Source: Falsiruegeria litorea R37 (GTDB lineage: Bacteria; Pseudomonadota; Alphaproteobacteria; Rhodobacterales; Rhodobacteraceae). Taken from it: a stretch of DNA of 64,000 bases. Positions 5,529-27,228 of this stretch are shown piece by piece. Positions within the stretch are counted from its first letter, which is position 1; every line of letters begins with the position of its first letter. The notes beneath the pieces were generated by a model. It had not been told where the DNA came from, ran no database searches, and worked only from the letters and a program-made list of their open reading frames with translations. Location of the stretch: the NCBI RefSeq assembly GCF_900172225.1, contig NZ_FWFO01000001.1, positions 868,001 through 932,000 of the forward strand, written 5' to 3'. The translations under genes and the position numbers were made by a program.

Positions 5529-5680
5529 AAAACCGCCAAACAGCAGAACGTTAATCCCTGTCTGCCGTCGGCCAATTGCACTGGTTGAATAGGGGGGAAA
5601 GGTGGGGAAAGCGAGGAGGAGAGTTTGCTTTCCCCTGAACGCGACCGGAGCAAAGGGAGAAGCCGGTCTGCATTCAATTT

Positions 5681-5752: not shown

Positions 5753-5757
5753 AATCG

Positions 5758-6564
5758 TTAGTCAACAAAGGCGCGTTCAACCACAAAGGTCGACGGTTTG
5801 TTGTTGGCGCCTTCGTCCAGGCCGAACCCTTCGAGCGCGGCCTTGGTGTCCTTGAGCATCTCCATCGAACCGCAGATCATGCCGCGGTCGGTTTCGGGTG
5901 AGATCTGCGGAACCCCCAGATCTTCAAAGACTTTTCCGCTTGCCATCAGGTCGGTGATGCGCCCCTGAAACGGATAATCCTCGCGCGTCACGGTGCAGTA
6001 GTGGCGCAAGTTCTGCGCCATCTCACCGACCAGCGGATCCTCTTTCAGCGCCTTGACCAATTGCTTGCCGTATTCCAGCTCGCCTACCTCGCGGCAGGTG
6101 TGGGTCAGGATGACTTCGTCAAACTTTTCATAGGTTTCCGGATCACGGATGAGCGAGGCAAAGGGCGCGATGCCGGTGCCGGTCGAGAACATCCAAAGGC
6201 GCTTTCCGGGCAGCAAAGCGTCGTTGACCAGCGTGCCGGTGGGCTTCTTGCGCATCAGCACCGTGTCGCCCACCTTGATCTTTTGCAGGTGCTCGGTCAG
6301 CGGGCCGTCCGGCACCTTGATCGAATAGAACTCCAGCTCTTCGTCCCAGCTGGGTGAGGCTACGGAATAGGCACGAAATACTGGCTTTTCCGCATTCGGC
6401 AGGCCAATCATCACGAACTCACCCGACCGGAACCGGAAAGTCGAAGGGCGTGTTATACGAAATTTAAACAAACGGTCTGTATAGTGCTCGACCGAGGTGA
6501 CCGTCTGCGCAAAAACGCCAGCGGGGATCGGGAATTCAGTCTTGGGGGCTTCATCAAGCGACAT
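5758..6564 (-). CDS. fpr: Ferredoxin--NADP+ reductase
   Basis: 268 aa from an ATG at 6562-6564 preceded by GGAGAG; an upstream in-frame extension overlaps the ferredoxin gene region and is unlikely. It has the bacterial FNR two-domain layout: FAD domain with RAYSVASP and the NADP domain with STGTGIAPF and the C-terminal VVERAFVD tail. It moves electrons between NADPH and the adjacent ferredoxin. It lies 17 bp after the ferredoxin gene, in one operon, opposite enamidase. Inference: the pair feeds reducing power to 6-hydroxynicotinate reductase. Confidence 0.92.
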   Translation of the reverse strand: MSLDEAPKTEFPIPAGVFAQTVTSVEHYTDRLFKFRITRPSTFRFRSGEFVMIGLPNAEKPVFRAYSVASPSWDEELEFYSIKVPDGPLTEHLQKIKVGDTVLMRKKPTGTLVNDALLPGKRLWMFSTGTGIAPFASLIRDPETYEKFDEVILTHTCREVGELEYGKQLVKALKEDPLVGEMAQNLRHYCTVTREDYPFQGRITDLMASGKVFEDLGVPQISPETDRGMICGSMEMLKDTKAALEGFGLDEGANNKPSTFVVERAFVD

Positions 6565-6930: not shown

Positions 6931-6945
6931 GTTTGTGTGCTAATG
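6931..6945. promoter_or_regulatory. Cluster operator motif, copy 1 (before fdxA)
   Basis: On the minus strand this reads CATTAGCACACAAAC, 17 bp upstream of the ferredoxin start. It is one of four related sites (also 7032, 9886 and 21791), all next to genes of this cluster. Inferred target of the MarR regulator at 9423-9860. Confidence 0.55.
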
Positions 6946-7031
6946 AATAATCGACTCGGCAAGTGCCTGTCAATATGTTTGTGTACGTTCAATAAATCAA
7001 ACCTCATGACGCTTGACGGATGCTCAATTTA

Positions 7032-7048
7032 TATTAGTATGCAAACAA
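7032..7048. promoter_or_regulatory. Cluster operator motif, copy 2 (before enamidase)
   Basis: Reads TATTAGTATGCAAACAA on the plus strand, 30 bp before the enamidase start. It aligns with the copies at 6931, 9886 and 21791. Confidence 0.55.
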
Positions 7049-7077
7049 TAATTGCGCCAAACCAATCGGAGGGATCC

Positions 7078-8244
7078 ATGTCCGCAAAGCTTGTCATCAA
7101 GAACATCGGCCTGTTGTTGTCGGGCAAGATGGAGGAGCCGATTCTGGACGGTGACTGCCTGATCGCGATCGATGGCAAGATCCACGAGTGGGGGTATGAG
7201 AAAGATTTGGACTGCGAAGACGCCGATACGGTGGTCGATGCCAATGGTGTAACCGTGGCACCCGGTCTGATCGACAGCCACATTCACCCGGTCGTTGGCG
7301 ACTATACCCCGCGCCAGCAGCAATTGCACTGGATCGACTCGACCCTGCATGGCGGCGTGACCACTCTGATCTCGGCGGGCGAGGTGCACATGCCGGGCCG
7401 TCCCAAAGACATTGTGGGGCTCAAGGCGATGGCGATCGCGGCGCAGCGCTGGTACGAGAATTTCCGCCCCTCGGGCATGAAGGTCCACGCAGGCGCCCCC
7501 GTGATTGAACACGGTATGGTCGAAGAAGACTTCAAGGAAATGGCCGACGCCGGTGTCAAACTGTTGGGCGAGGTTGGTCTGGGCACCGTCAAGGACGGCA
7601 AGACCGCGAAACAGATGGTCGATTGGGCGCGCAAATACGGCATCCAATCCACCATTCACACCGGCGGCCCGTCGATCCCGGGTTCGGGACTGATTGATGC
7701 GGATATGGTTCTGGAAACCGGCACCGATGTGATTGGCCACATCAACGGGGGCCATTCGGCGCTGCCCGATGATCAGATCATGTGCCTGTGCGAAAGCTGT
7801 ACTGCCGGCTTGGAAATCGTCCACAACGGCAACGAGCGGGCCGCGCTTCTGACGCTGAACACCGCGCGTGAGCTGAAGCAGATGGACCGGATTATTCTGG
7901 GCACAGATGGCCCTGCTGGGTCTGGTGTACAGCCCTTGGGCATCATGCGGATGGTTGCGATGCTGTCCTCTCTCGGCAACGTCCCGGCCGAGATTGCGTT
8001 CTGCTTTGCCAACGGCAACACGGCGCGCCAACGCGAGTTGGACACTGGCCTGATCGACAAAGGTATGTGCGCCGATTTCGTGCTGATGGATCAAGCGCAA
8101 CATGCTCCGGGCAAGAACATTCTGGAATCGGTGCAATTGGGCAATTTGCCGGGTGTTGGCATGACCATCATCGACGGCAAGGTGACCTCGGAACGCAGCC
8201 GCAATACCCCGCCCGCAACCCGCCTGCCGCAGGTTGTGAGCTAA
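7078..8244 (+). CDS. ena: Enamidase-like amidohydrolase
   Basis: 388 aa; ATG at 7078 behind TCGGAGGG (the open frame extends further upstream without a ribosome-binding site). In E. barkeri, enamidase is a binuclear Fe-Zn amidohydrolase that opens 1,4,5,6-tetrahydro-6-oxonicotinate to 2-formylglutarate and ammonia. The metal ligands expected for this family are present: H68 and H70 (DSHIH), E165 (LLGEVG), H194 (TIHTGG), H221 (IGHINGG) and D277 (LGTDGP). It shares the operator motif with the hydroxylase/HNR operon. Other cyclic amides or enamides remain possible substrates, but the pairing with HNR makes this assignment strong. Confidence 0.85.
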   Translation: MSAKLVIKNIGLLLSGKMEEPILDGDCLIAIDGKIHEWGYEKDLDCEDADTVVDANGVTVAPGLIDSHIHPVVGDYTPRQQQLHWIDSTLHGGVTTLISAGEVHMPGRPKDIVGLKAMAIAAQRWYENFRPSGMKVHAGAPVIEHGMVEEDFKEMADAGVKLLGEVGLGTVKDGKTAKQMVDWARKYGIQSTIHTGGPSIPGSGLIDADMVLETGTDVIGHINGGHSALPDDQIMCLCESCTAGLEIVHNGNERAALLTLNTARELKQMDRIILGTDGPAGSGVQPLGIMRMVAMLSSLGNVPAEIAFCFANGNTARQRELDTGLIDKGMCADFVLMDQAQHAPGKNILESVQLGNLPGVGMTIIDGKVTSERSRNTPPATRLPQVVS

Positions 8245-8315: not shown

Positions 8316-9428
8316 ATGAGCGCACCGCTGCAAGGTCTGAAAGTTGTTGAACTGGCCCGCATTCTGGCAGGTCCCTGGATCGGGCAGACGCTGGCGGATC
8401 TGGGCGCGGATGTGCTCAAGATCGAAAGCCCGGACGGGGACGACACACGCAAATGGGGCCCGCCGTTCATCGAACGGGACGGGGACAAGACGGCGGCCTA
8501 TTTTCATGGCGCCAACCGGGGCAAGGACAGCATTGCACTGGATTTCGGCGATGCCGATGATCGCGCTAAACTGCTGGACCTGATCCGTGACGCCGACGTT
8601 CTGATCGAGAACTTCAAGGTTGGCGGGCTCAAGAAATTCGGGCTGGACTACGACAGTGTCAAACAGGTCAATCCGCGCCTCATTTACGCTTCGGTCACTG
8701 GCTTTGGTCAGGATGGACCTTATGCGCATCGTGCGGGTTATGATTTCCTGATCCAGGGCATGAGCGGCATCATGGACCTGACCGGTGATCCTGCGGGCGA
8801 GCCACAAAAGATCGGTGTGGCTTTTGCTGACATTTTCACCGGACTTTATGGTGTAATCGGTATTCAGGCGGCTCTGGCCGAGCGGGAGCGTTCAGGCCTG
8901 GGACAACATGTCGATCTAAGCCTGCTTGATTGCATGACAGGTGTTCTGGCCAACCAGGCGATGAACTTCCTGGCGTCCGGCAACTGTCCGACACGTCTGG
9001 GAAATGCGCACCCGAACATCGTGCCCTATCAGGTGTTCCCGGTGTCGGACGGCCACATCATCATCGCCTGCGGCAATGACCGGCAATACGCCACGCTCTG
9101 TACCATTCTGGACGTGCCGGAATTGATCGAAGATACCCGTTTTGTGGCCAACCCCGACCGAGTGGCCAACCGAGCAGAACTGACCGAGTTGCTAACCGCC
9201 GCATGTATGAAGTGGGGCAAATGGGACTTGCTGGCCGCGCTTGAAAAGGGCGGCGTGCCGGGTGGTCCGATCAATTCGGTGGCCGAAGCCCTGAGCGACC
9301 CGCAGGTCCAGCACCGCGAAATGCAGATCACACCCGAAGGCGTGCCCGGACTGCGCACCCCGATCCGCTTTTCGCGGTCCGAGCTGAAGTTGGACAAGGC
9401 CTCGCCAAAGCGACCCGTCAAATCATGA
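8316..9428 (+). CDS. Class III (CaiB/BaiF) CoA-transferase
   Basis: 370 aa. Family features: N-terminal VVELARILAGPWIGQTLADLGADVLKIE spread over about residues 9-38, GYDFLIQGMSG, and the catalytic-Asp region VDLSLLDCM near residue 205. These enzymes move CoA between carboxylic acids. By context (enamidase product, formylglutarate to glutarate semialdehyde to glutarate in aerobes) it may activate glutarate with succinyl-CoA, as the human CaiB-family glutarate CoA-transferase does; this is inference. A strong terminator lies just upstream, and it converges with marR, overlapping by 6 bp. Confidence 0.9.
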   Translation: MSAPLQGLKVVELARILAGPWIGQTLADLGADVLKIESPDGDDTRKWGPPFIERDGDKTAAYFHGANRGKDSIALDFGDADDRAKLLDLIRDADVLIENFKVGGLKKFGLDYDSVKQVNPRLIYASVTGFGQDGPYAHRAGYDFLIQGMSGIMDLTGDPAGEPQKIGVAFADIFTGLYGVIGIQAALAERERSGLGQHVDLSLLDCMTGVLANQAMNFLASGNCPTRLGNAHPNIVPYQVFPVSDGHIIIACGNDRQYATLCTILDVPELIEDTRFVANPDRVANRAELTELLTAACMKWGKWDLLAALEKGGVPGGPINSVAEALSDPQVQHREMQITPEGVPGLRTPIRFSRSELKLDKASPKRPVKS

Positions 9429-14690: not shown

Positions 14691-15275
14691 TTATCGCAGG
14701 CCATCCTTGCCTTCGGCGTTTTCGTGGGTCAGACCACCGACGCGAGGCAGCGGGCGGCCGCTGTCGGTGACAGCGACGGCCACCATGATTTCATTTGCGC
14801 GCGGCGCGTCGTTCAGGCGAACCTCGATGCCGTCAAAGTGGCTGCGCACATAAGCGGCGTCCTTATGGCCAAGCGGTACGTCAAGCACCTGGCCCGGGCT
14901 GCCCATCTTCTTGGAAGAGGGTACCAGGGCTGCGCCCTTTTCGACCTCCTTGCGCAGCGGCGCGCCCAGTTTCGGGTGCAGCAGGGCGGCGGCATGTTCC
15001 AGCTCGCCGTTTTCGCCGACCATGGCGGATTTGCCATAGCTTTCGGCCTGCTCGGGTGTGATCCCCAGGGCCTCGACACATTTCTTGCCCAGAATAGTTC
15101 CCAGTTCCGCGCCCATATCCATCAGCGGGGTCAGGTCCTCTTCATAGGTCCCGGCATAGGGGTTGGCGATCACCGCCACGGCGACCGCCTTGCGGGTGGC
15201 CGGTGCGATGTCACGTCCTGCTTCGATATGGGTTTCTTCGACGTTTACGGCGATTTTACGAATATCCATGGTCAT
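14691..15275 (-). CDS. DUF1185 (amino-acid-synthesis family) protein, copy B
   Basis: 194 aa, full family length, no signal peptide or membrane segment. The Pfam family is named 'amino acid synthesis', but its biochemical role is unknown. It shares with the upstream paralogue the blocks NPYAGTYEEDL, SYGKSAMVGENGELEH, VPSSKKMG, LDVP, YVRSHFDGIEV and LNDAPR, and both end in DGLR. It overlaps that paralogue by ATGA, so the two are probably made together and may form a hetero-oligomer. It is the sixth gene of the coupled hydroxylase/HNR operon. Confidence 0.88.
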   Translation of the reverse strand: MTMDIRKIAVNVEETHIEAGRDIAPATRKAVAVAVIANPYAGTYEEDLTPLMDMGAELGTILGKKCVEALGITPEQAESYGKSAMVGENGELEHAAALLHPKLGAPLRKEVEKGAALVPSSKKMGSPGQVLDVPLGHKDAAYVRSHFDGIEVRLNDAPRANEIMVAVAVTDSGRPLPRVGGLTHENAEGKDGLR

Positions 15276-15853
15276 CTCAGACCGTCCTCTCCCTTGATGT
15301 CCCAGGCCTCCAACCCGCCCGAGCGTGAATGAATGCGCGGTCCGGTGCTCATCACCAGCGCAAATGCCAGCTCATCGCCGCGCGGCGCATCGTTGCTGCC
15401 CACTTCCATGCTGTCGAAATGCGACCGCACGTAAGAGGCGTTGATATGGGTGATCGGCACGTCCAGCCGCGCGCCAACGCCGCCGACCTTCTTGGACGAG
15501 GGCACGATTGCGTTTGCATTGCCCAGCAGTTGCCGCATGGCGTAACCGCCCGGTGCGTGCCACAAGGCGCCATGCTCCAGCTCGCCGCCTTCGCCGACGA
15601 GGGACCCTTTGCCATAGCCTTCGATGTTTTCGGGACCGCCCAGGATGTCGAGCAGCTTTTGTGCCATTTGCAGACCCAGAGGCTTCAGGTCCTCCATAAA
15701 GCCCTGAATGTCGGCCTCATACCGGCCAGCAAAGGGGTTCTTGATGATCGCCAAAACGGCCGCACGGCGTTGAGGTGTTTCCGGAGCGGGGCCGCCCTCG
15801 TGAAAGATCTCTTCGTAAGACGCGATTGTTTTTCTTAGAATGACGTCAGGCAT
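15272..15853 (-). CDS. DUF1185 (amino-acid-synthesis family) protein, copy A
   Basis: 193 aa; same conserved blocks as copy B: NPFAGRYEADI, GYGKGSLVGEGGELEH, VPSSKKVGG, LDVPITH, YVRSHFDSMEV, SNDAPRGDE. The strictly shared Lys, His, Ser and Asp residues suggest an active site, but no reaction is established. The start overlaps the UPF0280 stop by 8 bp and the stop overlaps copy B by 4 bp. Possible roles are chaperone or maturation factor, or an enzyme acting on a ring-reduced intermediate. Confidence 0.88.
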   Translation of the reverse strand: MPDVILRKTIASYEEIFHEGGPAPETPQRRAAVLAIIKNPFAGRYEADIQGFMEDLKPLGLQMAQKLLDILGGPENIEGYGKGSLVGEGGELEHGALWHAPGGYAMRQLLGNANAIVPSSKKVGGVGARLDVPITHINASYVRSHFDSMEVGSNDAPRGDELAFALVMSTGPRIHSRSGGLEAWDIKGEDGLR

Positions 15854-16709
15854 TTAGAAGTGTCCGTTTGTTTTGTTGTCCGGTCAGACCGGAAGGTCCT
15901 GCATGGCGGGATTCGCCCTGCAGGTGAAGGGATGCAGCGCGGATCAATCTGGCATCGCGCATTTTTTCGGCGACGATCAGACCGCTTTGCAGCGCATGGT
16001 GAATATCTGCGTTCGCGAGCGGCGCGCAGTGGGTCGTGACAAGCCGATCGCCCAGATCGCTGTCGTCTTGCAGGTCGGTGGCCGGGCGGCGGGTGATGGC
16101 AGGGTGATTGGGCAGGTCGACGGCGTTTGCAATCAGGGTTGCGGCCACATCGGCTTGGGCGGCCGTGCGCGCCAGAACTGTGACGCTGTCGGCGATGCCA
16201 AAAGACAGGCTGCGACCTCCGCGACCTGACGTGGCAATGCCGCCAATCCTGTCGCGAGAGGTGATTTCTATACGGCCCAGATCATGGCCTTCGACCGAGG
16301 CCATGGCAGAGGTGAAGGATTCACCCGGTGCCAGATGCAACGCAATGTCGCCACCATTGTTCACATAGGCCCGGCGCAGGGGCGTGGCCTGACGCATGGC
16401 GTTCAGGATTTCATCGGCCACCGAACCAGCCACTGCCGCCATCGGGGTTACGAAGGTAAGGCTATGAGGTCGAACCACACGCGCCATTCGGCGGGCAATA
16501 CGCCCATCAAATGGGGTATGGTCCAATGTCATCGGCTGGCGTAGTCGTTCCAACTCGCCAACCAGTTCTTGCAGCACGGTTTGAAACCGTGCCTCCGCAG
16601 CCTCAAAAGCCAGTCGACGCGCGTCATCTGCCCCGATGATCAGGTCAATCGGCCCATGCTGCAAATGCAGCCGGGTGCCACAGGGCAATATGGCGGCGAC
16701 GGGCTTCAC
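15846..16709 (-). CDS. UPF0280 family, ApbE-like protein (candidate flavin transferase)
   Basis: 287 aa from a GTG at 16707-16709 that overlaps the HNR stop as GTGA; a TTG three codons earlier is the only alternative. UPF0280 proteins resemble ApbE, which attaches FMN covalently to protein Ser/Thr. Visible ApbE-like elements are AYVNNGGDIAL (cf. ApbE NxGGD), then GIATSGRGGRSLSFGIADSVTVLA and ADVAATLIANAV (cf. the ApbE TSG..H..D and aDalaTa segments). No signal peptide is seen, so it acts in the cytoplasm. It sits immediately after HNR, whose E. barkeri relative carries covalent flavin, so HNR is the obvious candidate substrate (inference). Confidence 0.82.
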   Translation of the reverse strand: MKPVAAILPCGTRLHLQHGPIDLIIGADDARRLAFEAAEARFQTVLQELVGELERLRQPMTLDHTPFDGRIARRMARVVRPHSLTFVTPMAAVAGSVADEILNAMRQATPLRRAYVNNGGDIALHLAPGESFTSAMASVEGHDLGRIEITSRDRIGGIATSGRGGRSLSFGIADSVTVLARTAAQADVAATLIANAVDLPNHPAITRRPATDLQDDSDLGDRLVTTHCAPLANADIHHALQSGLIVAEKMRDARLIRAASLHLQGESRHAGPSGLTGQQNKRTLLNA

Positions 16710-18193
16710 TTGGCCCAACGATAGTTGGTGGCCGCCATCGGGTCGGGCTGGTTGTCGAACTGGGACACCTTGCGGGTTTCATCCGAGACAACCTCAGCCA
16801 CCGGTTTGATTTCCTCCATGTGACCGCCAAGCGTGCCATAGTCGCTGACCCGCATGGTGAATTCGATGGGGGCAACCAGGGCCGGGGTCGGGACGTAACC
16901 GAACGAGCCTGTAGGCATGTCCAGCACGTCCACCATCACGGTGATCCCGCCACCGGGCCAGACATAGGCCTCGGCCCCGCCGCAGGACACAAAGGTCAGA
17001 GAGTCCTTGACCGATTTGGTCAGGCGAACAGGGTTTTCGGTGACGCCGGCCCGCAAGCTGCCGCCCGCGCCGCCCATGAACAGAACCGAACAGACCGACG
17101 GTTCACAGTTCTCGGCGATCAAATCGGCGGATGCTTTTAGAGGGGCCGGAATGTCGACAGTCTGCGGTTTCAGGTCTGCGTCGAGCTCGAAATAGGCGTA
17201 TTGCTCACCGGTGGTCGAGACCATCAGCAGTTTCATGCCTTCTTTGGCGAATTTCGGGTTGAAGTCACCCAGGATCTTGAGCGGGTCTTCGATATCCGTG
17301 CCGCCCCATCCGGTGCCGGGTTCCGCCACCTGGAAGTATCGACCAGGTGTCGAGCGGCGACCGTTGATCTTGATGCCGGTTGCCTCGACATCCAGCAGCT
17401 TACCCGCCTGGTGCTCTGACAGAACGCCGGTGATGTGGTCATCGACCACAACCACGTCATCCACATGGTCGACCCACTGTTTGGCGAACATGCCGATGGT
17501 GGCCGAGCCGCAGCCGACGCGCATCAGTTTCTCTTCGACGCCGTTGATGATCGGGGCCTTGCCTGCCTCAACAACAACGGTGGTCTGATGCTCTTCTTCA
17601 CCGATCACCATCTCAACCGCTTCGCGGTTGCAGAGTTTCAGCAGCGCATCACAGGTGATCCGGCCTTCTTTCTTGGAACCACCAGTCAGGTGCTCAACAC
17701 CACCCAGAGACAACATCTTCGAGCCGTACTCGGACGTCATCACATGACCAATCGGTTCGCCATCGACATAGACCACATCGCGTTCGTGGCCGATGTGACG
17801 GTCAGTGTCGATCTTCACTTTCACACCGCAGTACGAGAAGATGCCTTCGGTTACGACGGTGACCATGTCGACGCCCTGCACCTCTTGGCTGACGATGAAC
17901 GGCGCGGGCTTGTAGTCGGGATATGTTGTGCCGGCGCCAACGGCAGTCACAAAGGGGCGATTGCCCTGCACGATGTTGCCATCCCAGTCATCGGGCCCTT
18001 GGCTGTCCTTCATGAAGGGGACCAGCTTGGCCTCGTCGGTGTTTTCGATGATGGTCAGCGCATCCAGGCGCACCAGATCGCCGCCGTGGTTGGCATAGCG
18101 GTCACAGGCGCCGGCCTTGCCGTCGGCGATGAAACACATCACCGGGCAGGCGTCGCAGCGGATTTTTTCGGGTTTGGCGCGGTCAGTTGCCAT
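16706..18193 (-). CDS. hnr: 6-hydroxynicotinate reductase-like iron-sulfur flavoprotein
   Basis: 495 aa; the ATG at 18191-18193 sits behind AAGGA. In E. barkeri this enzyme reduces 6-hydroxynicotinate to 1,4,5,6-tetrahydro-6-oxonicotinate and contains covalent flavin, one [2Fe-2S] and two [4Fe-4S] clusters. Here an N-terminal cluster motif is clear (C13, C16, C20, C30: CDACPVMC...GAC), and further Cys occur in SYCGVK, RITCDALLKLC, RVGCGSA and ENCEPSVC. No clean ApbE acceptor motif was found; the closest is DMPTGSF. It overlaps the hydroxylase gene by 11 bp. The assignment rests on similarity plus the enamidase, ferredoxin and hydroxylase context. Confidence 0.83.
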   Translation of the reverse strand: MATDRAKPEKIRCDACPVMCFIADGKAGACDRYANHGGDLVRLDALTIIENTDEAKLVPFMKDSQGPDDWDGNIVQGNRPFVTAVGAGTTYPDYKPAPFIVSQEVQGVDMVTVVTEGIFSYCGVKVKIDTDRHIGHERDVVYVDGEPIGHVMTSEYGSKMLSLGGVEHLTGGSKKEGRITCDALLKLCNREAVEMVIGEEEHQTTVVVEAGKAPIINGVEEKLMRVGCGSATIGMFAKQWVDHVDDVVVVDDHITGVLSEHQAGKLLDVEATGIKINGRRSTPGRYFQVAEPGTGWGGTDIEDPLKILGDFNPKFAKEGMKLLMVSTTGEQYAYFELDADLKPQTVDIPAPLKASADLIAENCEPSVCSVLFMGGAGGSLRAGVTENPVRLTKSVKDSLTFVSCGGAEAYVWPGGGITVMVDVLDMPTGSFGYVPTPALVAPIEFTMRVSDYGTLGGHMEEIKPVAEVVSDETRKVSQFDNQPDPMAATNYRWAK

Positions 18194-20930
18194 TGTTGTT
18201 GTCCTTGATTGCGGCACGGACGCGCGACGGGGTGGCGGGCACTTGGGTCAGCCGCACGCCGCTGGCGTCTTTGATTGCGTTCAAAATGGCCGGAGCGGTG
18301 GGGATCAGCACGTGTTCGCCCAACCCCTTGGCCCCATAGGGACCATGCGCATCCGGTTCTTCGATGATGTGGGTTTCGATCGGGGGAATGTCGCCAATGG
18401 TCGGGATCAGATAGTCATGCAGGTTTTCGGTCCGGCCCGGCAGGTATTCTTCCATCAGAGCCATGCCCAGACCCTGTGCGATGCCGCCCTGAACCTGCCC
18501 CTCGACCAGCATCGGGTTGATCGCCTTGCCGACATCATGGGCGGCCACAAATTTCAGCGGCTTGACGGTGCCCAGTTTGGTGTCGACCTCAACCACCACC
18601 AGATGCGCGGCATAGCCGAATTGGGCGTAAGGGATGCCCTGGCCGTTTTCGTCCAGCGGTTTGGTGGGCGGGTCATAGGTCTCTTCTGCGCGCAGGACAT
18701 AGCCCTCGGCGTCAGGGGACAGCGTGCTCAGGTCGATGACATGTTCGCTGCCCTGATCGGTGATCTTGATCTGACCGTTGCCGATGGTCAGCGTGGCGTC
18801 TTCGCTGGCGTTCACACGCGCCAGGATTTGCGCTCGCATCGCCTCGCCCGACAGGCGCGAGGCGCTGCCCGACACATAGGTCTGACGCGAGGCCGAGGTT
18901 TTGCCGGCATCCGGCGTCACATCCGTGTCCGCACCGATGATTTCAAGCTGAGCCACCGGAATGCCCAAGGCAGTGGCAAAAATCTGGCTGATGACGGTAT
19001 TTGCGCCCTGGCCGATATCCATCGCGCCCTGGTGCAGCACCACGGTGCCATCGGCGCGAACGCCGGATTTGATGGTCGAGGGATTTGGCAGCGAAGTGTT
19101 GCCGCAGCCGTACCAGCCGCCCGCAACGCCAACGCCGCGCTTTAGCGTGTCGTTGCTTGCGTTGAACGCCTCTGCGTCAGTGCGTTCGTCATTCCACGCG
19201 GTACGCAAGGCCTCAAAACACGGCTTGATCCCAACGCCTTGCTCGAAGACCTGACCACAGACGGTCGGGACATTGTTCTCAAGCGAGTTGTTGATGCGGA
19301 AATCCAGCCGGTCGATGCCAAGCTTATCCGCCAACTCGTCAAACAGGCTTTCCTGCGCGATGGCCGATTGGGGCACGCCAAAGCCTCGGAAGGCACCTGA
19401 CGAAGGGCAGTTCGTGTGGATGCCTTTGGATTCAGCTCGGTAGTCGGTGATTTGATAAGGGCCGGATGCGTGGACCGGAACCCGGTTCGCGACAGTCGGA
19501 CCCCAGCTGGCATAAGCGCCGGTGTTGAAGTAGCCGAAGAAGTCGAAGCCTTTGATCTTGCCATCCTTCGTGGCGCCAATCTTGAGCGTGATCTCGGACG
19601 GGTGCCGCTTGGTGGTCGACTGCATCGACTCGGTGCGCGAATAACAGATGCGCACGGGCTTGCCCGTCTTGAGCGCGCCAAGCGCCAGGTAGGGCTGCAC
19701 CGAAATATCGAGTTTGGACCCGAACCCACCGCCAACACCGGTCGGAATGATGCGGATCTGATCGCGAGGCATGCCCAGAATGATCTCCATCGAATCGAGA
19801 TCCATGACCGGAGCCTGGGTACAGGCGTGGATTTCAACGCGGCCATTCACCACCTCGGCAAAGCCTGCTTCCGGCTCGATGTAGCCGTGCTCGACAAATC
19901 CGCTGCGGAAGCTGCCTTCGACGGTGAGGTCGGCCTCGGCAATTGCCGCCTTGGCGTCGCCGCACTGGACAAAGCCCCCGCACATGACATTGCCGTCACG
20001 GCCTTCGTGCAGTTGCGCCGCCTCTGGCGCCATTGCCGCATGTACGTCCTGAGCGGCAGGGCGCTCGTCCCATTCGACTGGGAACGTATTTGGGTCAAAG
20101 TCACGGGCAAATTCAGGGGTGGCAACGATGGCAGCCACGGCTTCGCCCCGGAAGCGCGCCTCTTCTTCGGCAAAGACGGGTTGATCCATGAAGGCCGGGA
20201 TAACGCCAAACAGGTTGCGGCCTGGAACGTCAGCGGCAGTCAAAACAGCTTCCACGCCTGTGACTTCAGCAAATGCGTCCAAATCCCCAAAGGTGAACCC
20301 TGCGCGTGGGAAGGGCGAGCGGATCACAACCACTTCGAGCGTGCCAGCAGGGGCGACGTCATCGCCAAAGGCCTCTGTGCCCTGCACTTTGCCCAGACCG
20401 TCGAGGCGGCGGATGCCTTCGCCTGCATGACCTTCGGCCTGCATGGGCACCTCGGCCTGACCCACGGCGACAACGGCGTCGATGATCTTGCGGTAGCCGG
20501 TGCAGCGGCAGAGCACGCCCCCAAGGGCGTCCTGCACCTGCTCTTCGTCCGGAGCATCTGTGTCGCGCAGCAAGGCGACAGCAGCGGTCATCATGCCGGG
20601 TGTACAGATCCCACACTGTGCCGCGCCAAAATTCTGAAAGCTTTCGGACAGACGCTGCGTGATCTCATCCTCGCGCGCCAAACCGCCCAGGGTTTCGACG
20701 GCCCGGCCAGCCGCCTGTTGCGCGGGCATCAAACAGGCGCACACGGGATCGCCATCGACCAAGACAGTGCAGGCCCCGCAGTCGCCCGCGTTGCAGCCGA
20801 TCTTGACGTCGCGGGCCCCAAGGCGTTCGCGCAGGGTCTCAGAAAGACGTTCCCCGGCAACGGGCGTTGTGCTGACGTGATCGCCGTTGAGGATGAAATC
20901 AGCGACGGTTTCGCTCACGCGCTTATCCAT
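18183..20930 (-). CDS. Xanthine-dehydrogenase-family hydroxylase, fused [2Fe-2S]-Mo subunit (nicotinate dehydrogenase-like)
   Basis: 915 aa from ATG 20928-20930. Residues 1-160 carry two [2Fe-2S] motifs (GCNAGDCGACTVLVDG...C and QCGICTPGMM...LCRCTGYRK). The rest is the molybdopterin domain, with GVGGGFGSKLD, GAFRGFGVPQS and the catalytic-Glu segment GAKGLGEHV. The family hydroxylates aromatic N-heterocycles with water-derived oxygen. With HNR downstream, nicotinate to 6-hydroxynicotinate is the expected reaction. FeS and Mo parts are usually separate chains; here they are fused, with only the FAD subunit separate. No XdhC-type Mo-insertion gene lies in the window. Confidence 0.9.
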   Translation of the reverse strand: MDKRVSETVADFILNGDHVSTTPVAGERLSETLRERLGARDVKIGCNAGDCGACTVLVDGDPVCACLMPAQQAAGRAVETLGGLAREDEITQRLSESFQNFGAAQCGICTPGMMTAAVALLRDTDAPDEEQVQDALGGVLCRCTGYRKIIDAVVAVGQAEVPMQAEGHAGEGIRRLDGLGKVQGTEAFGDDVAPAGTLEVVVIRSPFPRAGFTFGDLDAFAEVTGVEAVLTAADVPGRNLFGVIPAFMDQPVFAEEEARFRGEAVAAIVATPEFARDFDPNTFPVEWDERPAAQDVHAAMAPEAAQLHEGRDGNVMCGGFVQCGDAKAAIAEADLTVEGSFRSGFVEHGYIEPEAGFAEVVNGRVEIHACTQAPVMDLDSMEIILGMPRDQIRIIPTGVGGGFGSKLDISVQPYLALGALKTGKPVRICYSRTESMQSTTKRHPSEITLKIGATKDGKIKGFDFFGYFNTGAYASWGPTVANRVPVHASGPYQITDYRAESKGIHTNCPSSGAFRGFGVPQSAIAQESLFDELADKLGIDRLDFRINNSLENNVPTVCGQVFEQGVGIKPCFEALRTAWNDERTDAEAFNASNDTLKRGVGVAGGWYGCGNTSLPNPSTIKSGVRADGTVVLHQGAMDIGQGANTVISQIFATALGIPVAQLEIIGADTDVTPDAGKTSASRQTYVSGSASRLSGEAMRAQILARVNASEDATLTIGNGQIKITDQGSEHVIDLSTLSPDAEGYVLRAEETYDPPTKPLDENGQGIPYAQFGYAAHLVVVEVDTKLGTVKPLKFVAAHDVGKAINPMLVEGQVQGGIAQGLGMALMEEYLPGRTENLHDYLIPTIGDIPPIETHIIEEPDAHGPYGAKGLGEHVLIPTAPAILNAIKDASGVRLTQVPATPSRVRAAIKDNNNGN

Positions 20931-21786
20931 TCTCGCCTCCTGCCTGTATGATTGCCCGCAGGCATTGTTCCGCAACCGCATCCAGACGGTATTCGCCACT
21001 GCCGCGTACATCGTCGATGGGCGACAGCGGGGTGAGATGCGCCTCGGTCACCTCAATTTGATCCAGCGTTTTGCCGATCAGGTCGGATTCCAACCCGGTC
21101 AGGCGCTGTGCGACGGGCGAGCATGCCCCAACAGCAACGCGAGCGTGATCGATGCGTCCCTCATCGTCCAGACCAACCACGGCTGCAGTCATCGTGATCG
21201 AGATCACCAAGTAGCGGCGTGAGCCGAGCTTCTCGAAAGCGCCCTGCGCATGCGCAGGCGGTTCCGGCAACAGAATTGCGGTGACAAGTTCGTCGTCGAG
21301 CAGGTCTGTCTTGCGGACACCGGTGATGAAATCGGACAGATCGATCGTGCGCGTGCCGCGAGCCGAGCCGATTTCAACCTGCGCATCCAGCGTCAGCAGA
21401 GGGGGTACACCGTCAGCGGCAGGGGAGGCGTTGCAGAGGTTGCCTGCGACAGTGCCTGCGTTCTGAATTTGCAAGCTTCCCACTTCGCGCGCAGCGGCTT
21501 GCAGGCCCGCAAAGGAAGAGGGCAGATCAGTGCGAAAGATCTCACTCCACCGGGTCGCGGCACCAATGCGCCAGCCATCCGTTCCCTGGGTGATACCGGA
21601 CAGGCCCGCGATGCGGGTCACGTCGAGAAGATCAGATTTAAGCGGTCCTTGTGGACGCGCCGGATAAAAGTCGGTCCCCCCTGCAACGATATCGACATTG
21701 CGCGCGCTGAGGCGGTCAAATGCATCGTCCAAGGTCGTGGGCGAAAAGTAGTCCAAGGTGCGAGTTCCCGGTTGGAAGCGTGCCAT
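20923..21786 (-). CDS. FAD-binding subunit of xanthine-dehydrogenase-family hydroxylase
   Basis: 287 aa, CO-dehydrogenase medium-subunit fold. FAD-binding motifs are VAGGTDFYP near residue 35 and AGTVAGNLCNASPAAD near residue 105. It passes electrons from the Fe-S centres of the 915-aa subunit to the terminal acceptor. It is the first gene of the coupled six-gene operon and overlaps the next by 8 bp. No ribosome-binding site precedes the ATG and a cluster operator copy lies 5 bp upstream, so the transcript may be leaderless. Confidence 0.92.
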   Translation of the reverse strand: MARFQPGTRTLDYFSPTTLDDAFDRLSARNVDIVAGGTDFYPARPQGPLKSDLLDVTRIAGLSGITQGTDGWRIGAATRWSEIFRTDLPSSFAGLQAAAREVGSLQIQNAGTVAGNLCNASPAADGVPPLLTLDAQVEIGSARGTRTIDLSDFITGVRKTDLLDDELVTAILLPEPPAHAQGAFEKLGSRRYLVISITMTAAVVGLDDEGRIDHARVAVGACSPVAQRLTGLESDLIGKTLDQIEVTEAHLTPLSPIDDVRGSGEYRLDAVAEQCLRAIIQAGGENG

Positions 21787-21790
21787 TGTT

Positions 21791-21805
21791 GTTTGTATGC
21801 TAATG
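21791..21805. promoter_or_regulatory. Cluster operator motif, copy 4 (before the hydroxylase operon)
   Basis: On the minus strand this reads CATTAGCATACAAAC, ending 4 bp from the ATG of the FAD subunit. It is the copy closest to the consensus. A bound repressor here would sit at the promoter or transcription start. Confidence 0.6.
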
Positions 21806-22076
21806 ATATTGCTGGATTCGGAAATTTGTCAACGTAAAGTTTGAACATGTTACGGGATTGAATTTATTCGAGGATTCCGGGTGTTGAGGTTGTGGGGGCC
21901 AGTTTGCCTTACGCGGGCATTCGGGGTTTCAGGGGGGATTGCGGAAAATTGTCAGACTCGATTGTCGACGACTCGGTAACTTTTTCCTCAGCTCAAAGTT
22001 GAAGGTTGCCAAACTGAATTTTGGACCGTTAATTTGTCAAAAAAGATCGTTGACACACAAACGATTATTTTCAACA

Positions 22077-22094
22077 GTGGTGAACGATCACTAA
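22077..22094. promoter_or_regulatory. TetR-type palindrome, copy 1 (before the second liv operon)
   Basis: GTGGTGAACGATCACTAA matches the palindrome TTAGTGAACGTTCACTAA at about 15 of 18 positions. It lies 76 bp before the binding-protein gene. It is the least conserved of the five copies (see 29046, 29146, 47647, 50698). Confidence 0.5.
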
Positions 22095-22170
22095 CAAAAA
22101 AGTTGGCACGATCAAGCGAATGGGCGCCTATCCGTCCAGGAGCAAAACCAAACCCTTAGGGAGGGAACAA

Positions 22171-23418
22171 ATGAATAAGTTCAAGTCGTTGCTGGTCGGT
22201 GCGGTTGTCGCCGGTTTGGCTGCAACATCGGCCATGGCGCAGGAGAAAGTCCGAATCGCCTTTATCGACCCATTGTCGGGGCCGTTTGCGTCGACGGGCA
22301 ACCAGGGCCTGTCGATCTATCGTCACTCGGTTGACGAACTGGTCAACAAGAAGGGCGCCCTGCTGAATGGCGCGGCCGAGTTCGAGATCGTACCGTTCGA
22401 CAACAAGATCAGTGCCAAGGAATCCCTGATCCAGCTGCAGGTCGCCATCGACCAAGGCATTCGTTTCATCGCACAGGGTGCATCGTCGGGCGTTGCCAAC
22501 GCGCTGACCGATGCCATCAAAAAGCACAACAAGCGCAACCCCGACAGCCAGGTCATCTTCCTGAACCACTCGGCGGTTGATCCGGCGCTGACCAACGACA
22601 AGTGCAACTTCTGGCACTTCCGTTTTGACGCCAACGCCGACATCAAGATGGATGCGCTGACCGACGACATCGCGGCCAATCAGGACATCAAAAAGGTCTA
22701 CATCATCGGCCAGGACTATTCGTTCGGCAAAGCGGTTGCGGCCGCCGCTGTTCGTTTCTTGGGTGAAAAGCGCCCCGACATCGAAATCGTCGGCAACGAG
22801 CTGCACCCGATTGGCAAGGTCAAAGACTTCACGCCTTACGCGCGCAAAGTTATTGCAAGCGAAGCGGACGCCGTAATCACCGGCAACTGGGGCGGTGACA
22901 TGGTTGGTCTGGGCAAGGCCGTCATGGGTGCAGGCTTTACCAAGCCGATCTACACCTACTATGGCGCCACCTCGGGCATCACTGCGAACTTTGGTGATCA
23001 GGGCGACGGCATCGTCAAGCTGGCCGGTGCCGGTCAGATCAACCCGCCGCTGTCGGCAGACGCCGAAGCGTTCACTGCGTCCTACTACGAGAAGTTCCCG
23101 GAGCTCGACCTGGGCCAGCCGCAGATGGCAAACGTTGCTCCGATGCTGGCCGCGGCCATCAACGAAGTAGGCAATGCCGATGACGTAAAAGCGATCGCCT
23201 ACGCTCTGGAAGGCATGGAGCACGACGGCATCCTGACCGGTAAGACCGTGATGCGCGAAAGCGATCACCAGGCGATCCAGACTGTGACCGTTCAAGGCCA
23301 GGCCAAAGATGGTTTGACCTTCGATTATGACAACTCGGGCCACGGCATGATTGCCGAGACCGTCGTCGAGCTGGCCTCGGCAGATGCGCCAACCACCTGC
23401 AAGATGAAACGCCCGTAA
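22171..23418 (+). CDS. ABC transporter substrate-binding protein (LivJ/K type)
   Basis: 415 aa from ATG 22171 behind AGGGAGGG; the in-frame upstream extension is unsupported. The signal peptide ends at TSAMA-Q (about residue 24). The mature start is VRIAFIDPLSGPFASTGNQG, typical of branched-chain-type binding proteins. It is first gene of a complete five-gene transporter (22171-27228) placed under a TetR-type palindrome. The ligand is unknown; linkage to the LLM/amidase/CoA operon suggests it feeds that pathway. Confidence 0.93.
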   Translation: MNKFKSLLVGAVVAGLAATSAMAQEKVRIAFIDPLSGPFASTGNQGLSIYRHSVDELVNKKGALLNGAAEFEIVPFDNKISAKESLIQLQVAIDQGIRFIAQGASSGVANALTDAIKKHNKRNPDSQVIFLNHSAVDPALTNDKCNFWHFRFDANADIKMDALTDDIAANQDIKKVYIIGQDYSFGKAVAAAAVRFLGEKRPDIEIVGNELHPIGKVKDFTPYARKVIASEADAVITGNWGGDMVGLGKAVMGAGFTKPIYTYYGATSGITANFGDQGDGIVKLAGAGQINPPLSADAEAFTASYYEKFPELDLGQPQMANVAPMLAAAINEVGNADDVKAIAYALEGMEHDGILTGKTVMRESDHQAIQTVTVQGQAKDGLTFDYDNSGHGMIAETVVELASADAPTTCKMKRP

Positions 23419-23449
23419 CGTTTCGTCACTGCATTAAAGGTTGCCAGAC

Positions 23450-23478
23450 TGTCCCGTCAGGGGTTTCCTGACGGGACA
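23450..23478 (+). other. Intercistronic 12-bp hairpin after the binding-protein gene
   Basis: TGTCCCGTCAGG and its exact complement flank a 5-bp loop. There is no T-run. It parallels the hairpin at 13322-13355 and is probably an mRNA stabiliser giving excess binding protein. Confidence 0.6.
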
Positions 23479-23521
23479 AGACCAAGAAAAAACCGAAATT
23501 CTCATCAGGGAGCCGACAACG

Positions 23522-24478
23522 ATGGCATTGTTCCTCGTTAATATTTTGGATGGCCTGGTTACGGGGTTGCTGCTGTTCATGCTGTGCAGCGGCCTTACAC
23601 TCATCTTTTCGATGATGGGTGTTCTGAACTTTGCCCACGCCAGTTTCTATATGTTGGGGGCGTATTTCGCTTACCAAATCAGCACAATAACCGGGTTTTG
23701 GCTGGGCCTTCTGGTCGCCCCGGTCATCGTCGGCGTCTTTGGGGCGCTCATCGAGCGATACGGGCTGAGGCGCGTTCACAAATACGGCCATGTGCCCGAA
23801 TTGATCTTTACCTTTGGTCTGGCGCTGCTGATCGAAGAAGTGGTTCAGTTCTTCTGGGGCAAGAGCCAGATGGCTTACTCCGAGCCCGAGGCGCTGAACT
23901 TTGCCGCCTTTGCCATCGCTGGAAACTCTTTCCCTGCGTACAAAGTCTTCATGATCTTTGTTGCGATGGGGCTGTTCTTGACGTTGCTGTACATCCTGAC
24001 CAAGACCCGCATCGGGATGACCATTCAGGCTGCGCTCAGCTATCCCGAAACGGTGCAGAACCTGGGGCACAACGTGCCTTTGGTGTTCATGGGCGTCTTT
24101 GGCGTGGGCACTGCGATGGCGGGTCTGGCGGGCGTGATCGCAGGGCCGGTTCTGGGCACATTCCCCGGCATGGCGGTTCAGCTGGGCTCGATCGTTTTCG
24201 TAACCATCGTCATCGGCGGCCTTGGCTCGCTTTGGGGCGCGCTTGTTGCTTCGCTGATCATCGGCTGGCTACAAACTTTCGCCGCTGCCTACAACGTCGC
24301 GATGGAGGACATCCTGACCGCCATCGGCTTTACCAAACCTGAAAACATCTGGGATCATCCGCTGCAGGATCTGTGGACCCTGACCCTGCCGCAGATCGGG
24401 CCGATCCTGCCGTATCTGCTGATGGTCTTTGTCCTTGTGCTGCGTCCACAGGGTCTGATGGGGAAACGTGAGACATGA
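23522..24478 (+). CDS. livH: ABC transporter permease (LivH-like)
   Basis: 318 aa from ATG 23522 behind CAGGGAG. About eight membrane segments; LivH landmarks are GLTLIFSMMGVLNFAHASFYM (in part) and VTIVIGGLGSLWGAL. Its stop overlaps the next start by ATGA. It forms the inner-membrane channel with the LivM-like subunit. Confidence 0.93.
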   Translation: MALFLVNILDGLVTGLLLFMLCSGLTLIFSMMGVLNFAHASFYMLGAYFAYQISTITGFWLGLLVAPVIVGVFGALIERYGLRRVHKYGHVPELIFTFGLALLIEEVVQFFWGKSQMAYSEPEALNFAAFAIAGNSFPAYKVFMIFVAMGLFLTLLYILTKTRIGMTIQAALSYPETVQNLGHNVPLVFMGVFGVGTAMAGLAGVIAGPVLGTFPGMAVQLGSIVFVTIVIGGLGSLWGALVASLIIGWLQTFAAAYNVAMEDILTAIGFTKPENIWDHPLQDLWTLTLPQIGPILPYLLMVFVLVLRPQGLMGKRET

Positions 24479-25764
24479 ATACCGCAAGCAAAACACAAGT
24501 TGTGTCCAATCCCAACAGGTTGATATCGCTTTCCAACCTGCTGCCATGGGCCTTTGCCGCGCTGTTCCTGCTGTGTCTGCCACTGATCTTTCAGTCCAGT
24601 TCGGCCTTGACCATCATGAACCAGATGGCGATCACAATCGTCTTCGCGCTTAGCTATAACATGCTTCTGGGGCAGGGGGGCATGCTGTCCTTTGGGCACG
24701 CGGTCTACATGGGCCTGGGTGGGTTCTTTGCCATGCATGTGATGAACATGGTGGAATATGATGGCCTGTGGTTGCCCTTGCCGCTGCTGCCGGTTGTTGG
24801 CGGTGTGTTCGGCATGGCCTTTGCCTTCCTCATTGGCAGCTTCTCGACCCGTCGGGCAGGCACCGTGTTCGCGATGATTTCTCTGGGTGTGGGCGAGTTG
24901 ATCGCCGCCTGTTCGATCATCATTGTCGTCTTCTTTGGCGGTGAAGAGGGGATTTCAGGAGACCGGACCATGGGCCCCGAAGTTCTGGGTTACGATTTCG
25001 CCGCGCAGTCCGAGGTCTACTATCTAACCGTGATCTGGCTCTTGGTGGCCACAGCACTGATGTACCTTTTCTCGCGCACGCCGATTGGCCGTATTGCCAA
25101 CGCGGTTCGCGACAACGAAGAACGCGCCGAGTTCCTGGGTTATTCGCAACGCCGGGTGCGCTGGATGTCGTTCATCGCGTCGGGTTTCTTTGCAGGCGTC
25201 GCTGGCTCGCTCTTTGCCATCAACTTTGAGATCCTGACCGAAGAGAACCTGAACCTGGCGACCTCTGGCTCGATCCTGCTGATCACCTTCTTGGGGGGCG
25301 TCGGTTTCTTTGTCGGTCCTATCATCGGGGCGATCGTGTTCACCCTGCTGCAGACGGTTCTGGGTCTTTATACCGAGATCTGGTCGCTCTATCTGGGCAT
25401 CCTGTTCGTGGCCTGTGTGATGTTTTTCCCTGGTGGTTTTGCCGGGATCATCGCGATGCATCGCCGCCCGTTGGCTCTTGGCAAGCTGAACCTGTTGGTC
25501 GGTCCTTACCTCAAGGTTGCGATCCCTGCGATCACCAGCGTTCTTTCGCTGGCCGCGATCTTGGAAATCAGCTTCCACAAGCGCCATTCGTTTGGTGATG
25601 ACCACGAGATGTCCCTGTACGGCATCACCTTCGACAGTCATGGCTATCAAGCACTTGGCTTGTGCATCGTGATCGCTGCCATCTCGCTGTTCCTGGTCTC
25701 GCGCATTCTGCCGTCGATCAAGGCCGCCTGGGACGAAGCCAACCACGCAGGAGACGCCCAATGA
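24475..25764 (+). CDS. livM: ABC transporter permease (LivM-like)
   Basis: 429 aa. It has LivM landmarks (MLSFGHAVYMGLGGFFAMH, RIANAVRDNEERAEFLGY, ITFLGGVGFFVGPIIGA). It is about 100 residues longer than minimal LivM; the extra sequence is a C-terminal stretch ending with one more hydrophobic segment (about residues 390-415). Both neighbours overlap it by ATGA, so the subunits are translationally coupled. Confidence 0.92.
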   Translation: MNTASKTQVVSNPNRLISLSNLLPWAFAALFLLCLPLIFQSSSALTIMNQMAITIVFALSYNMLLGQGGMLSFGHAVYMGLGGFFAMHVMNMVEYDGLWLPLPLLPVVGGVFGMAFAFLIGSFSTRRAGTVFAMISLGVGELIAACSIIIVVFFGGEEGISGDRTMGPEVLGYDFAAQSEVYYLTVIWLLVATALMYLFSRTPIGRIANAVRDNEERAEFLGYSQRRVRWMSFIASGFFAGVAGSLFAINFEILTEENLNLATSGSILLITFLGGVGFFVGPIIGAIVFTLLQTVLGLYTEIWSLYLGILFVACVMFFPGGFAGIIAMHRRPLALGKLNLLVGPYLKVAIPAITSVLSLAAILEISFHKRHSFGDDHEMSLYGITFDSHGYQALGLCIVIAAISLFLVSRILPSIKAAWDEANHAGDAQ

Positions 25765-26525
25765 CAGTTCCCGCAATCGAACTGCGCAATCTGGAGAAGA
25801 GCTTTGGCCTGGCCAAGATCATCCAGGGCGTCAACCTCAAGATCGAAAAGGGCGAGCGTCATGCGGTGATCGGCCCGAACGGGGCAGGCAAATCCACCCT
25901 GTTCAACCTGATCACGGGTCGTTTCGCGCCGACCTCGGGCGGGGTATACCTGCATGGTGAAGATGTCAGCGGCATGCAGCCGTTCGAGATCAACCGACGC
26001 GGCCTGAGCCGGTCGTTCCAGATCACAAACATCTTCCCCAACATGACCGTGTTCGAGAACATTCGTTGCGGGCTGTTGTGGACGATGGGTTACAAATACT
26101 CGTTCTGGCACATGATCAATGGCCAACGCGATGTGACGGAAAAGGCAGAACAGATCCTGGAAGAGATCAATCTGACTGCACGTCGCGATCTTCTGGCGGG
26201 TACGCTGGCCTATGCCGAGCAGCGCGCGCTGGAAATCGGGATCACCATCGCAGGTGGCGCCGACATCATCCTGCTGGATGAGCCCTGTGCAGGGATGAGC
26301 CATTCGGAAACCGACCTGATCGTGGATCTGATCCGCAAGGTGACCGAGGACAAGACGCTGATGATCGTGGAACACGACATGGGTGTGATCTTTGACCTGG
26401 CCGACAAGATTTCGGTGCTGGTCTATGGCGAAATCATCGAGTCGGACGTGCCGGATGCCGTGCGTGCCTCGGCCAAGGTGAAAGAGGCCTATCTGGGTAC
26501 AACGCTTGAAGAAGAGGACGCGTAA
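25761..26525 (+). CDS. livG: ABC transporter ATPase (LivG-like)
   Basis: 254 aa from ATG 25761, overlapping livM by 4 bp. Walker A GPNGAGKST, the LivG segment LSRSFQITNIFPNMTVFENI, signature LAYAEQRALEIG and Walker B IILLDEPCAGM. It pairs with the LivF-like ATPase 1 bp downstream. Confidence 0.93.
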   Translation: MTVPAIELRNLEKSFGLAKIIQGVNLKIEKGERHAVIGPNGAGKSTLFNLITGRFAPTSGGVYLHGEDVSGMQPFEINRRGLSRSFQITNIFPNMTVFENIRCGLLWTMGYKYSFWHMINGQRDVTEKAEQILEEINLTARRDLLAGTLAYAEQRALEIGITIAGGADIILLDEPCAGMSHSETDLIVDLIRKVTEDKTLMIVEHDMGVIFDLADKISVLVYGEIIESDVPDAVRASAKVKEAYLGTTLEEEDA

Positions 26526-26526
26526 G

Positions 26527-27228
26527 ATGCTCAAGGTAAATGATCTTCACGCATACTACGGCAAAAGTCACATCCTGCAGGGCGTCAACCTTGAAGTCGG
26601 CGAAGGCGAGATCGTCTCGTTGTTGGGGCGCAACGGGGTGGGGCGGTCTACCACCTGCAAGGCGATCATGGGCGAGGTTGAACCCAAGGGATCGGTCCAG
26701 TTCCGCGGGGAAGAGCTTGCAGGGCGCAAGAGCTATGAGATCGCCAAGAAGGGCATAGGCTATGTACCCGAAAACCGCGATATCTTTCCCGGCCTGACCA
26801 CGCGCCAGAACCTGATGCTGGGCGTCAAGCCAGGGCAAAAGGACGGTGACGGGCGTTGGAATATGGAGGACATGTTCGACATGTTCCCCAACCTGCGAGA
26901 GCGGGCTGACGTCGATGCCTCGCTGATGTCCGGTGGCGAAAAGCAAATGCTGACCGTCTGCCGTGCACTGATGGGCGACCCGGATTTCATCATGATCGAC
27001 GAGCCGACCGAAGGTTTGGCCCCCAAGATCGTGGAGCAAGTGGGTGATCTTTTGCTGCAGATCGCTGAGCGGGGCGTTTCCATCCTGCTGGTGGAGCAAA
27101 AGCTTACCATCGCCATGCGGGTGACTAACCGCGTATACGTGATGGGCCACGGCCACATGGTGTTCGAAGGGACGCCGGATGATCTGAAAAACAACGCGGA
27201 AATCCGGCAGGAGTGGCTCGAGGTCTGA
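26527..27228 (+). CDS. livF: ABC transporter ATPase (LivF-like) with Arg in Walker A
   Basis: 233 aa. Walker A reads GRNGVGRST, so the phosphate-binding lysine at position 40 is arginine (codon CGG at 26644-26646), unlike the otherwise aligned LivF at 9956-10657 (K40). The signature (MSGGEKQ) and Walker B (IMIDEPTEG) are intact. Similar Arg variants seem to occur in other LivF relatives, from memory, so this may be a subfamily trait with one degenerate ATP site rather than a defect. A perfect bidirectional terminator follows. Confidence 0.9.
   Translation: MLKVNDLHAYYGKSHILQGVNLEVGEGEIVSLLGRNGVGRSTTCKAIMGEVEPKGSVQFRGEELAGRKSYEIAKKGIGYVPENRDIFPGLTTRQNLMLGVKPGQKDGDGRWNMEDMFDMFPNLRERADVDASLMSGGEKQMLTVCRALMGDPDFIMIDEPTEGLAPKIVEQVGDLLLQIAERGVSILLVEQKLTIAMRVTNRVYVMGHGHMVFEGTPDDLKNNAEIRQEWLEV

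Follow-up and report, generated by a model that had tools for sequence, protein, structure and literature searches.

A UPF0280 protein as a candidate cytoplasmic helper of 6-hydroxynicotinate reductase in Pseudomonadota

The 6-hydroxynicotinate reductase (HNR) of Eubacterium barkeri is an Fe-S protein, and it was reportedly found by Alhapel and colleagues in 2006 to contain covalent flavin. By analogy, a covalent flavin may be expected in proteobacterial HNRs as well. For aerobic nicotinate degradation, a gene cluster of Azorhizobium and Bradyrhizobiaceae has been described, which was seen to include conserved genes whose function is unknown (PMC3511419). In the flavin transferase ApbE, catalysis involves the conserved residues Ser241, His257 and Asp285 (PMC12052999). 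In Escherichia coli Ftp, the metal is bound via Asp280 and Thr284, among others (PMC4767422).

The family UPF0280 (COG2122) has been described elsewhere in a different context. In Desulfovibrio vulgaris, COG2122 is required for homocysteine formation together with a DUF39/COG1900 protein and a NIL/ferredoxin protein (PMC5764234). In Methanosarcina acetivorans, it aids efficient sulfide assimilation, and the family serves homocysteine synthesis there (PMC5764234, PMC12068725). The methanogen protein Mvol_0331 carries a C-terminal Cys cluster, CX2CX6DX2(H/C)X2C (PMC9431491). NF003321 had matches in M. jannaschii and M. acetivorans. COG2122 is present in Desulfovibrio and in methanogens too, with a role in homocysteine synthesis, and the whole family can therefore not be regarded as HNR flavinylases.

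The window, a stretch of 64,000 nucleotides of Falsiruegeria litorea R37, holds a cluster that resembles, judged by its genes, the aerobic nicotinate cluster of Azorhizobium and Bradyrhizobiaceae (PMC3511419). On the minus strand, the order of transcription is the FAD subunit of a xanthine-dehydrogenase-family hydroxylase (20923–21786), the fused 2Fe-2S and molybdopterin subunit of the same enzyme (18183–21011), HNR, UPF0280, two DUF1185 genes, a substrate-binding protein and ABC transporter genes. The hydroxylase is probably nicotinate dehydrogenase. The coordinates of the fused subunit are those of the open reading frame from the first ATG; the real start is probably further downstream. The DUF1185 proteins (AA_synth, PF06684) are encoded at 15272–15853, a downstream neighbour conserved in most loci, and at 14691–15275, likewise a conserved neighbour. 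Nearby on the plus strand are an amidohydrolase (6937–8244; PF01979/PF07969), a candidate enamidase of the nicotinate pathway that was present in the stored HNR flanks of 48 of 80 loci, and a CaiB family CoA transferase (8316–9428), whose nearest relative, succinate-glutarate CoA-transferase, scored below the cut-off.

HNR (16706–18193, minus strand) comprises 495 aa from the ATG at 18193 or 503 aa from a GTG at 18217. It was 77–84% identical to homologues that RefSeq names 6-hydroxynicotinate reductase and ~68% identical to Bradyrhizobium homologues. An N-terminal Cys cluster, CxxCxxxC...C, was conserved (C13, C16, C20 and C30), and nine or more Cys were conserved in total. The predicted structure was poor (pLDDT 55); the only structural hint was that residues 131–220 weakly resemble the C-terminal barrel of the glycine-cleavage T-protein.

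The UPF0280 gene (15846–16709, minus strand) encodes 287 aa, with a GTG start at 16709 and a stop at 15846. The protein is COG2122-like and belongs to the HNR-linked subfamily NF003322 (PRK04334; 373.9 bits against a cut-off of 290). As a sequence-only reading of this DNA had described, its start codon overlaps the HNR stop as GTGA (16706–16709), the HNR TGA being at 16708–16706. Among 76 named loci with both genes, this 4-base overlap was found in 32, any overlap in 48 and a spacing of ≤30 bases in 71. The tight linkage of the two genes exceeds chance.

The sequence-only reading had proposed a genome-wide comparison of UPF0280 and HNR, and had named an occurrence of UPF0280 mostly in genomes lacking any HNR as refuting its proposal. 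The comparison did not refute it in Pseudomonadota: the profiles were practically identical in the family, class and phylum draws, with UPF0280 rarely found where HNR was missing. In the family draw (316 genomes), 107 genomes had both genes, one had HNR only, one had UPF0280 only and 207 had neither (Fisher p 3e-83). The HNR-only genome (G577) had a partial HNR match and was 82% complete; in the UPF0280-only genome (G719), the match was a fragment lying where a contig begins. In the class draw (289 genomes; one genome whose HNR match spans just 35 residues was not counted as having HNR), the counts were 44, 0, 2 and 243 (p 5e-50). UPF0280 in the 44 genomes was near HNR or separated from it by contig ends, and the two UPF0280-only genomes had matches of 30–32% and no HNR. 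In the phylum draw (200 genomes), both genes were found in 15 genomes and neither in 185, with no discordant genome of either kind (p 7e-23). The family and class searches covered samples of genomes rather than full sets, and the p values are nominal given shared ancestry, although presence and absence were spread widely over genera.

Since adjacency makes the two genes non-independent, separated loci were also checked. UPF0280 was found in all 80 named proteobacterial HNR loci or genomes: directly downstream in 74, within 7 kb in two and elsewhere in the genome in four. In Acidisphaera, UPF0280 is unlinked to HNR: it neighbours a thiolase on a different contig and has therefore been kept without close linkage. 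On plasmids, UPF0280 accompanied HNR in 26 of 26 records. The sole UPF0280 plasmid without HNR, from Hydrogenophaga BPS33, still carries a remnant HNR C-terminus (ADYLDFGGHSDQV), flanked by an IS1071 transposase on one side and UPF0280 on the other; it is therefore a fragment of the same cluster. One genome (G583) had stop codons in both HNR and UPF0280. The phages searched contained no UPF0280, and the viral contigs searched contained no HNR.

In the sampled Pseudomonadota, UPF0280 is present in essentially all HNR genomes and almost absent elsewhere. Because of this near-exclusive co-occurrence, UPF0280 is probably a dedicated helper of HNR or of the nicotinate pathway. Co-occurrence would look alike whether UPF0280 matures HNR or acts at a different step of the pathway.

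The AlphaFold model of UPF0280 (pLDDT 90.9) matched 2o34 (DVU1097 of Desulfovibrio) best in VIA, with Z 20.2. Crystal structures of ApbE, Ftp and FmnB followed with Z 14–17 (200–216 residues at 3.1–4.0 A), and the next, unrelated T-fold proteins reached Z 7.7, all being <8. The model thus has the fold of ApbE. Comparison of the UPF0280 profile with the ApbEs of HNR-bearing genomes gave E 8.6e-7. At the gathering score, the window UPF0280 matched no Pfam family, PF02424 (ApbE) included, and 10 of 18 UPF0280 relatives matched PF02424 weakly (best E 6.7e-5).

The ApbE-like motifs NNGGD (residues 117–121) and ATSG (residues 159–162; 16224–16235, minus strand), pointed out earlier from the sequence, proved to be conserved: Asn117, Gly120, Asp121, Ala159 and Ser161 were invariant in 115 distinct homologues. 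In the profile alignment, ATSG fell on the ATSG of ApbE, with Ser161 on the active-site Ser (Ser241, Vibrio cholerae numbering). ADVAAT (A186 to T191; 16137–16154, minus strand) fell on ADAWAT, matching the ADxxxT of the ApbE metal site; D187 was invariant and T191 was present in 113 of the 115 homologues. From these alignments, UPF0280 appears to retain the active-site Ser and the metal-site Asp and Thr of ApbE (Ser161, Asp187 and Thr191). The ApbE catalytic His (His257, V. cholerae), within HxxDPxTG, fell in a gap of both UPF0280–ApbE profile alignments. Close to the site of this missing hairpin lies G165-R166-S167-L168 (16206–16217, minus strand), whose GRS was invariant in the 115 homologues and is GHS in 2o34. 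The ApbE-invariant N49, G79, P103 and W183 (of A3) had no clear counterpart in UPF0280. No export leader was seen on UPF0280. By its model and alignments, UPF0280 is an ApbE-fold protein and at most a candidate ApbE.

In HNR itself, the ApbE acceptor motif D-x-x-[ST]-G-A-[ST] was found in none of 118 distinct sequences, as the sequence-only reading had noted for the window protein. The nearest string it had named, DMPTGSF, occurs in the window HNR without being typical of the family: of the 118 HNRs, 25 have its Thr and 15 its Gly, and DMPTGSF was rejected as a flavin acceptor. Two conserved strings come closest: xHLTGG[ST/G]K (residues 167–174 of the 495-aa HNR; its final Ser is replaced by Gly in 15 of 118) and DDHITGVL[ST]EH (residues 251–261; Ser or Thr in 118 of 118). 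These are candidate acceptor sites and weak leads only, because a large part of HNR is conserved.

A canonical ApbE is unlikely to act on HNR, because PF02424 was absent over the Pfam cut-off in 27 of 55 HNR genomes and the host ApbE is apparently exported. PF02424 was over the cut-off in the other 28, and the genomes without such a match include single-contig ones of 100% completeness (e.g. G197, G203 and G315). The window genome's own ApbE has a leader with a twin-arginine and a lipobox-like motif, as in a Tat-type lipoprotein (MSTRRF...SRRTFILSSLALAAAC), and should therefore act outside the cytoplasm.

We propose that UPF0280 serves HNR as its dedicated accessory protein in the cytoplasm, with an ApbE fold that keeps the metal-site and Ser residues but has lost the His hairpin. 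It would be needed for making active HNR, and would most likely handle or attach the HNR flavin inside the cell, beyond the reach of an exported canonical ApbE. Taken as a whole, this account is plausible but tentative. Its first part, that UPF0280 is a dedicated cytoplasmic maturation factor of HNR, is somewhat probable; installation of the flavin on HNR would be the leading chemistry, which we consider possible rather than probable. It is doubtful that a cytoplasmic ApbE-superfamily branch lacking the catalytic His attaches flavin covalently to a soluble catabolic reductase, at a site outside the known acceptor motif. The deleted His hairpin, the lack of Dxx[ST]GA[ST] in HNR and the role of COG2122 in homocysteine synthesis elsewhere all count against a plain flavin transferase. 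The sequence-only reading, in which UPF0280 matures HNR in the cytoplasm via its flavin, thus agrees with the matching phyletic profile, the ApbE fold and profile and the lack of a visible export leader; its flavin transfer step is at odds with the missing His hairpin and acceptor motif.

Among the alternatives, UPF0280 might act on the nicotinate pathway without touching HNR, as a catalytic or accessory component of a step after HNR (e.g. ring opening or deamidation toward glutarate), together with the two DUF1185 proteins. We consider this unlikely overall, but a later step is compatible with the gene order, because UPF0280 adjoins DUF1185 genes even where HNR is kilobases away. In most clusters, UPF0280 is next to the DUF1185 genes or placed between them, also with HNR several kb off, and in Granulosicoccaceae and two further loci (L121 and L128), it adjoins the DUF1185 genes rather than HNR. 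In Kaistia (L129), however, UPF0280 is at HNR and the DUF1185 pair is on another contig. The published cluster leaves room for such a step: besides the genes for steps one to three, it contains conserved genes without a known function, and the onward route to glutarate has no genes assigned to it (PMC3511419). Some enzymes acting on heterocycles, urate oxidase and GTP cyclohydrolase IB among them, also have a T-fold (VIA Z 7–8 against UPF0280), but the fold of UPF0280 is far nearer to that of ApbE.

That UPF0280 delivers sulfur to HNR or helps to assemble its Fe-S centres, in line with the part proposed for COG2122 in sulfide assimilation, is quite improbable. The conserved Cys of HNR and the Fe-S nature of the E. 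barkeri enzyme would fit it, and so would the finding that COG2122 is needed by D. vulgaris for homocysteine synthesis and by M. acetivorans for using sulfide efficiently (PMC5764234, PMC12068725). However, no alignment column of the 115 HNR-linked UPF0280 homologues had Cys in ≥50% of the sequences, so the C-terminal Cys cluster of the methanogen protein (PMC9431491) is not found among them. The partner COG1900 (PF01837) was found in none of 299 Pseudomonadota, including the window genome, whereas three control genomes were positive. Without COG1900 and conserved Cys, the sulfur role is therefore not directly transferable to the HNR-linked UPF0280. A search of plasmids and viral contigs for COG1900 or more distant COG2122 proteins found nothing. 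HNR as a hidden relative of COG1900/HcyBio was also unsupported: with a COG1900-like query that matches PF01837 at 430 bits, hhalign against the HNR profile gave E 0.45, and a profile Smith-Waterman comparison gave z 0.1 against 60 shuffles, i.e. no detectable homology.

HNR could also attach its flavin itself, for example by an 8-alpha linkage, with UPF0280 as a non-catalytic FAD/FMN-binding chaperone or subunit. Covalent linkages via the isoalloxazine ring were self-catalysed in reviewed cases (PMC12052999), and the lack of both an ApbE acceptor motif in HNR and the His in UPF0280 is in line with this. The (nearly) invariant Ser161, Asp187, Thr191 and Arg166 of UPF0280 speak against it, as they suggest catalysis or metal binding, and we regard this alternative as improbable too. 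Mere co-inheritance in a cluster, with no specific link of UPF0280 to HNR or the pathway, is very hard to sustain: the genes are mostly adjacent and carried on plasmids, but UPF0280 is retained when separated, even unlinked (Acidisphaera), and across hundreds of genomes it has the phyletic profile of HNR, whereas the remaining cluster genes in the stored flanks vary.

With HNR as its partner, the large uncharacterised family UPF0280/COG2122 gains a precise partner in Pseudomonadota. If UPF0280 does install the HNR flavin, this would be an ApbE-like covalent flavinylation in the cytoplasm whose chemistry and acceptor site would both be new, and it might also explain the role of COG2122 in homocysteine synthesis. 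If it does not, UPF0280 would point to a missing step of aerobic nicotinate degradation. Nicotinate degradation bears on vitamin B3 and on 6-chloronicotinate, which arises in the breakdown of neonicotinoids.

Compared with known systems, UPF0280 is closest to the COG2122 proteins of Desulfovibrio and methanogens (DVU1097, MA1715 and Mvol_0331), which belong to the same family (hmmsearch E 5.6e-12 to 2o34, the top match in VIA). Their partners in homocysteine synthesis are COG1900 and the NIL/ferredoxin protein, whereas the window genome lacks COG1900. The HNR-linked proteins differ from 2o34 in having GRS instead of GHS and, being without conserved Cys, have no C-terminal Cys cluster. With the FAD:protein FMN transferases ApbE, Ftp and FmnB (PF02424), UPF0280 shares the predicted fold, the aligned ATSG and ADxxxT and a distant profile homology. 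It differs from them in lacking the HxxDPxTG hairpin, in lying below Pfam detection, in showing no export leader and in having a partner, HNR, without the Dxx[ST]GA[ST] acceptor.

The E. barkeri HNR is a homologous reductase (42% to the SG-6C relative; PMC3511419). The cluster of Azorhizobium and Bradyrhizobiaceae has in common with the window that HNR, the genes for the first three steps, an ABC transporter and conserved proteins of unknown function are in one cluster (PMC3511419). That publication gives the latter no role, and UPF0280 is not mentioned in its text. Covalent flavin is reportedly a feature of the E. barkeri enzyme, and the proteobacterial HNRs may share it.

The pair of adjacent DUF1185 (AA_synth) paralogues, located at positions 14691–15853 of the window, was almost always present in the HNR cluster. 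In Acidisphaera sp. L21 (locus L126), DUF1185 lay directly 3' of HNR, and UPF0280 was found on a different contig, close to thiolase and GroEL genes (contig C119 of genome G563, 21624–22445). Divergent from the hydroxylase genes and adjoining them, the window carries another full set of genes for an ABC transporter of the branched-chain/urea type, the second in this region (22120–27228, + strand), followed by two TetR-like regulators (27299–28955).

On contig C28 of the sampled genome G583 (4403–6485), HNR contained five internal stop codons (4 TAG and 1 TAA), and the adjoining UPF0280 was interrupted by one TGA and one TAG. Either the pair is decaying jointly or the assembly is faulty.

UPF0280 occurred at four places on the Hydrogenophaga sp. 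BPS33 plasmid NZ_CP044550.1 (locus L195); in the one copy examined, a truncated HNR 3' end lay upstream of it. Positions 4000–25500 of this plasmid hold IS1071-associated units in repeated copies. Besides UPF0280, these units encode a Rieske protein and a reductase of the VanB type, along with transporter proteins.

Two related genomes, G143 (locus L193, 8981–9775) and G009 (locus L194), gave a weak UPF0280 match (30–32% identity) and no HNR match. The ORF in G143 lacked both ATSG and the ADxxxT site. These matches possibly represent a third branch of the UPF0280 family.

HNR itself matched no Pfam family. The C-terminal barrel of the glycine-cleavage T-protein was weakly matched in all 16 HNRs scanned (best E-value: 1.9e-4), at residues 131–166 of the 503 aa HNR (window 16706–18193). 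This stretch may be a T-protein-like domain; the top structure matches of HNR were likewise T-proteins (Z 4–5).
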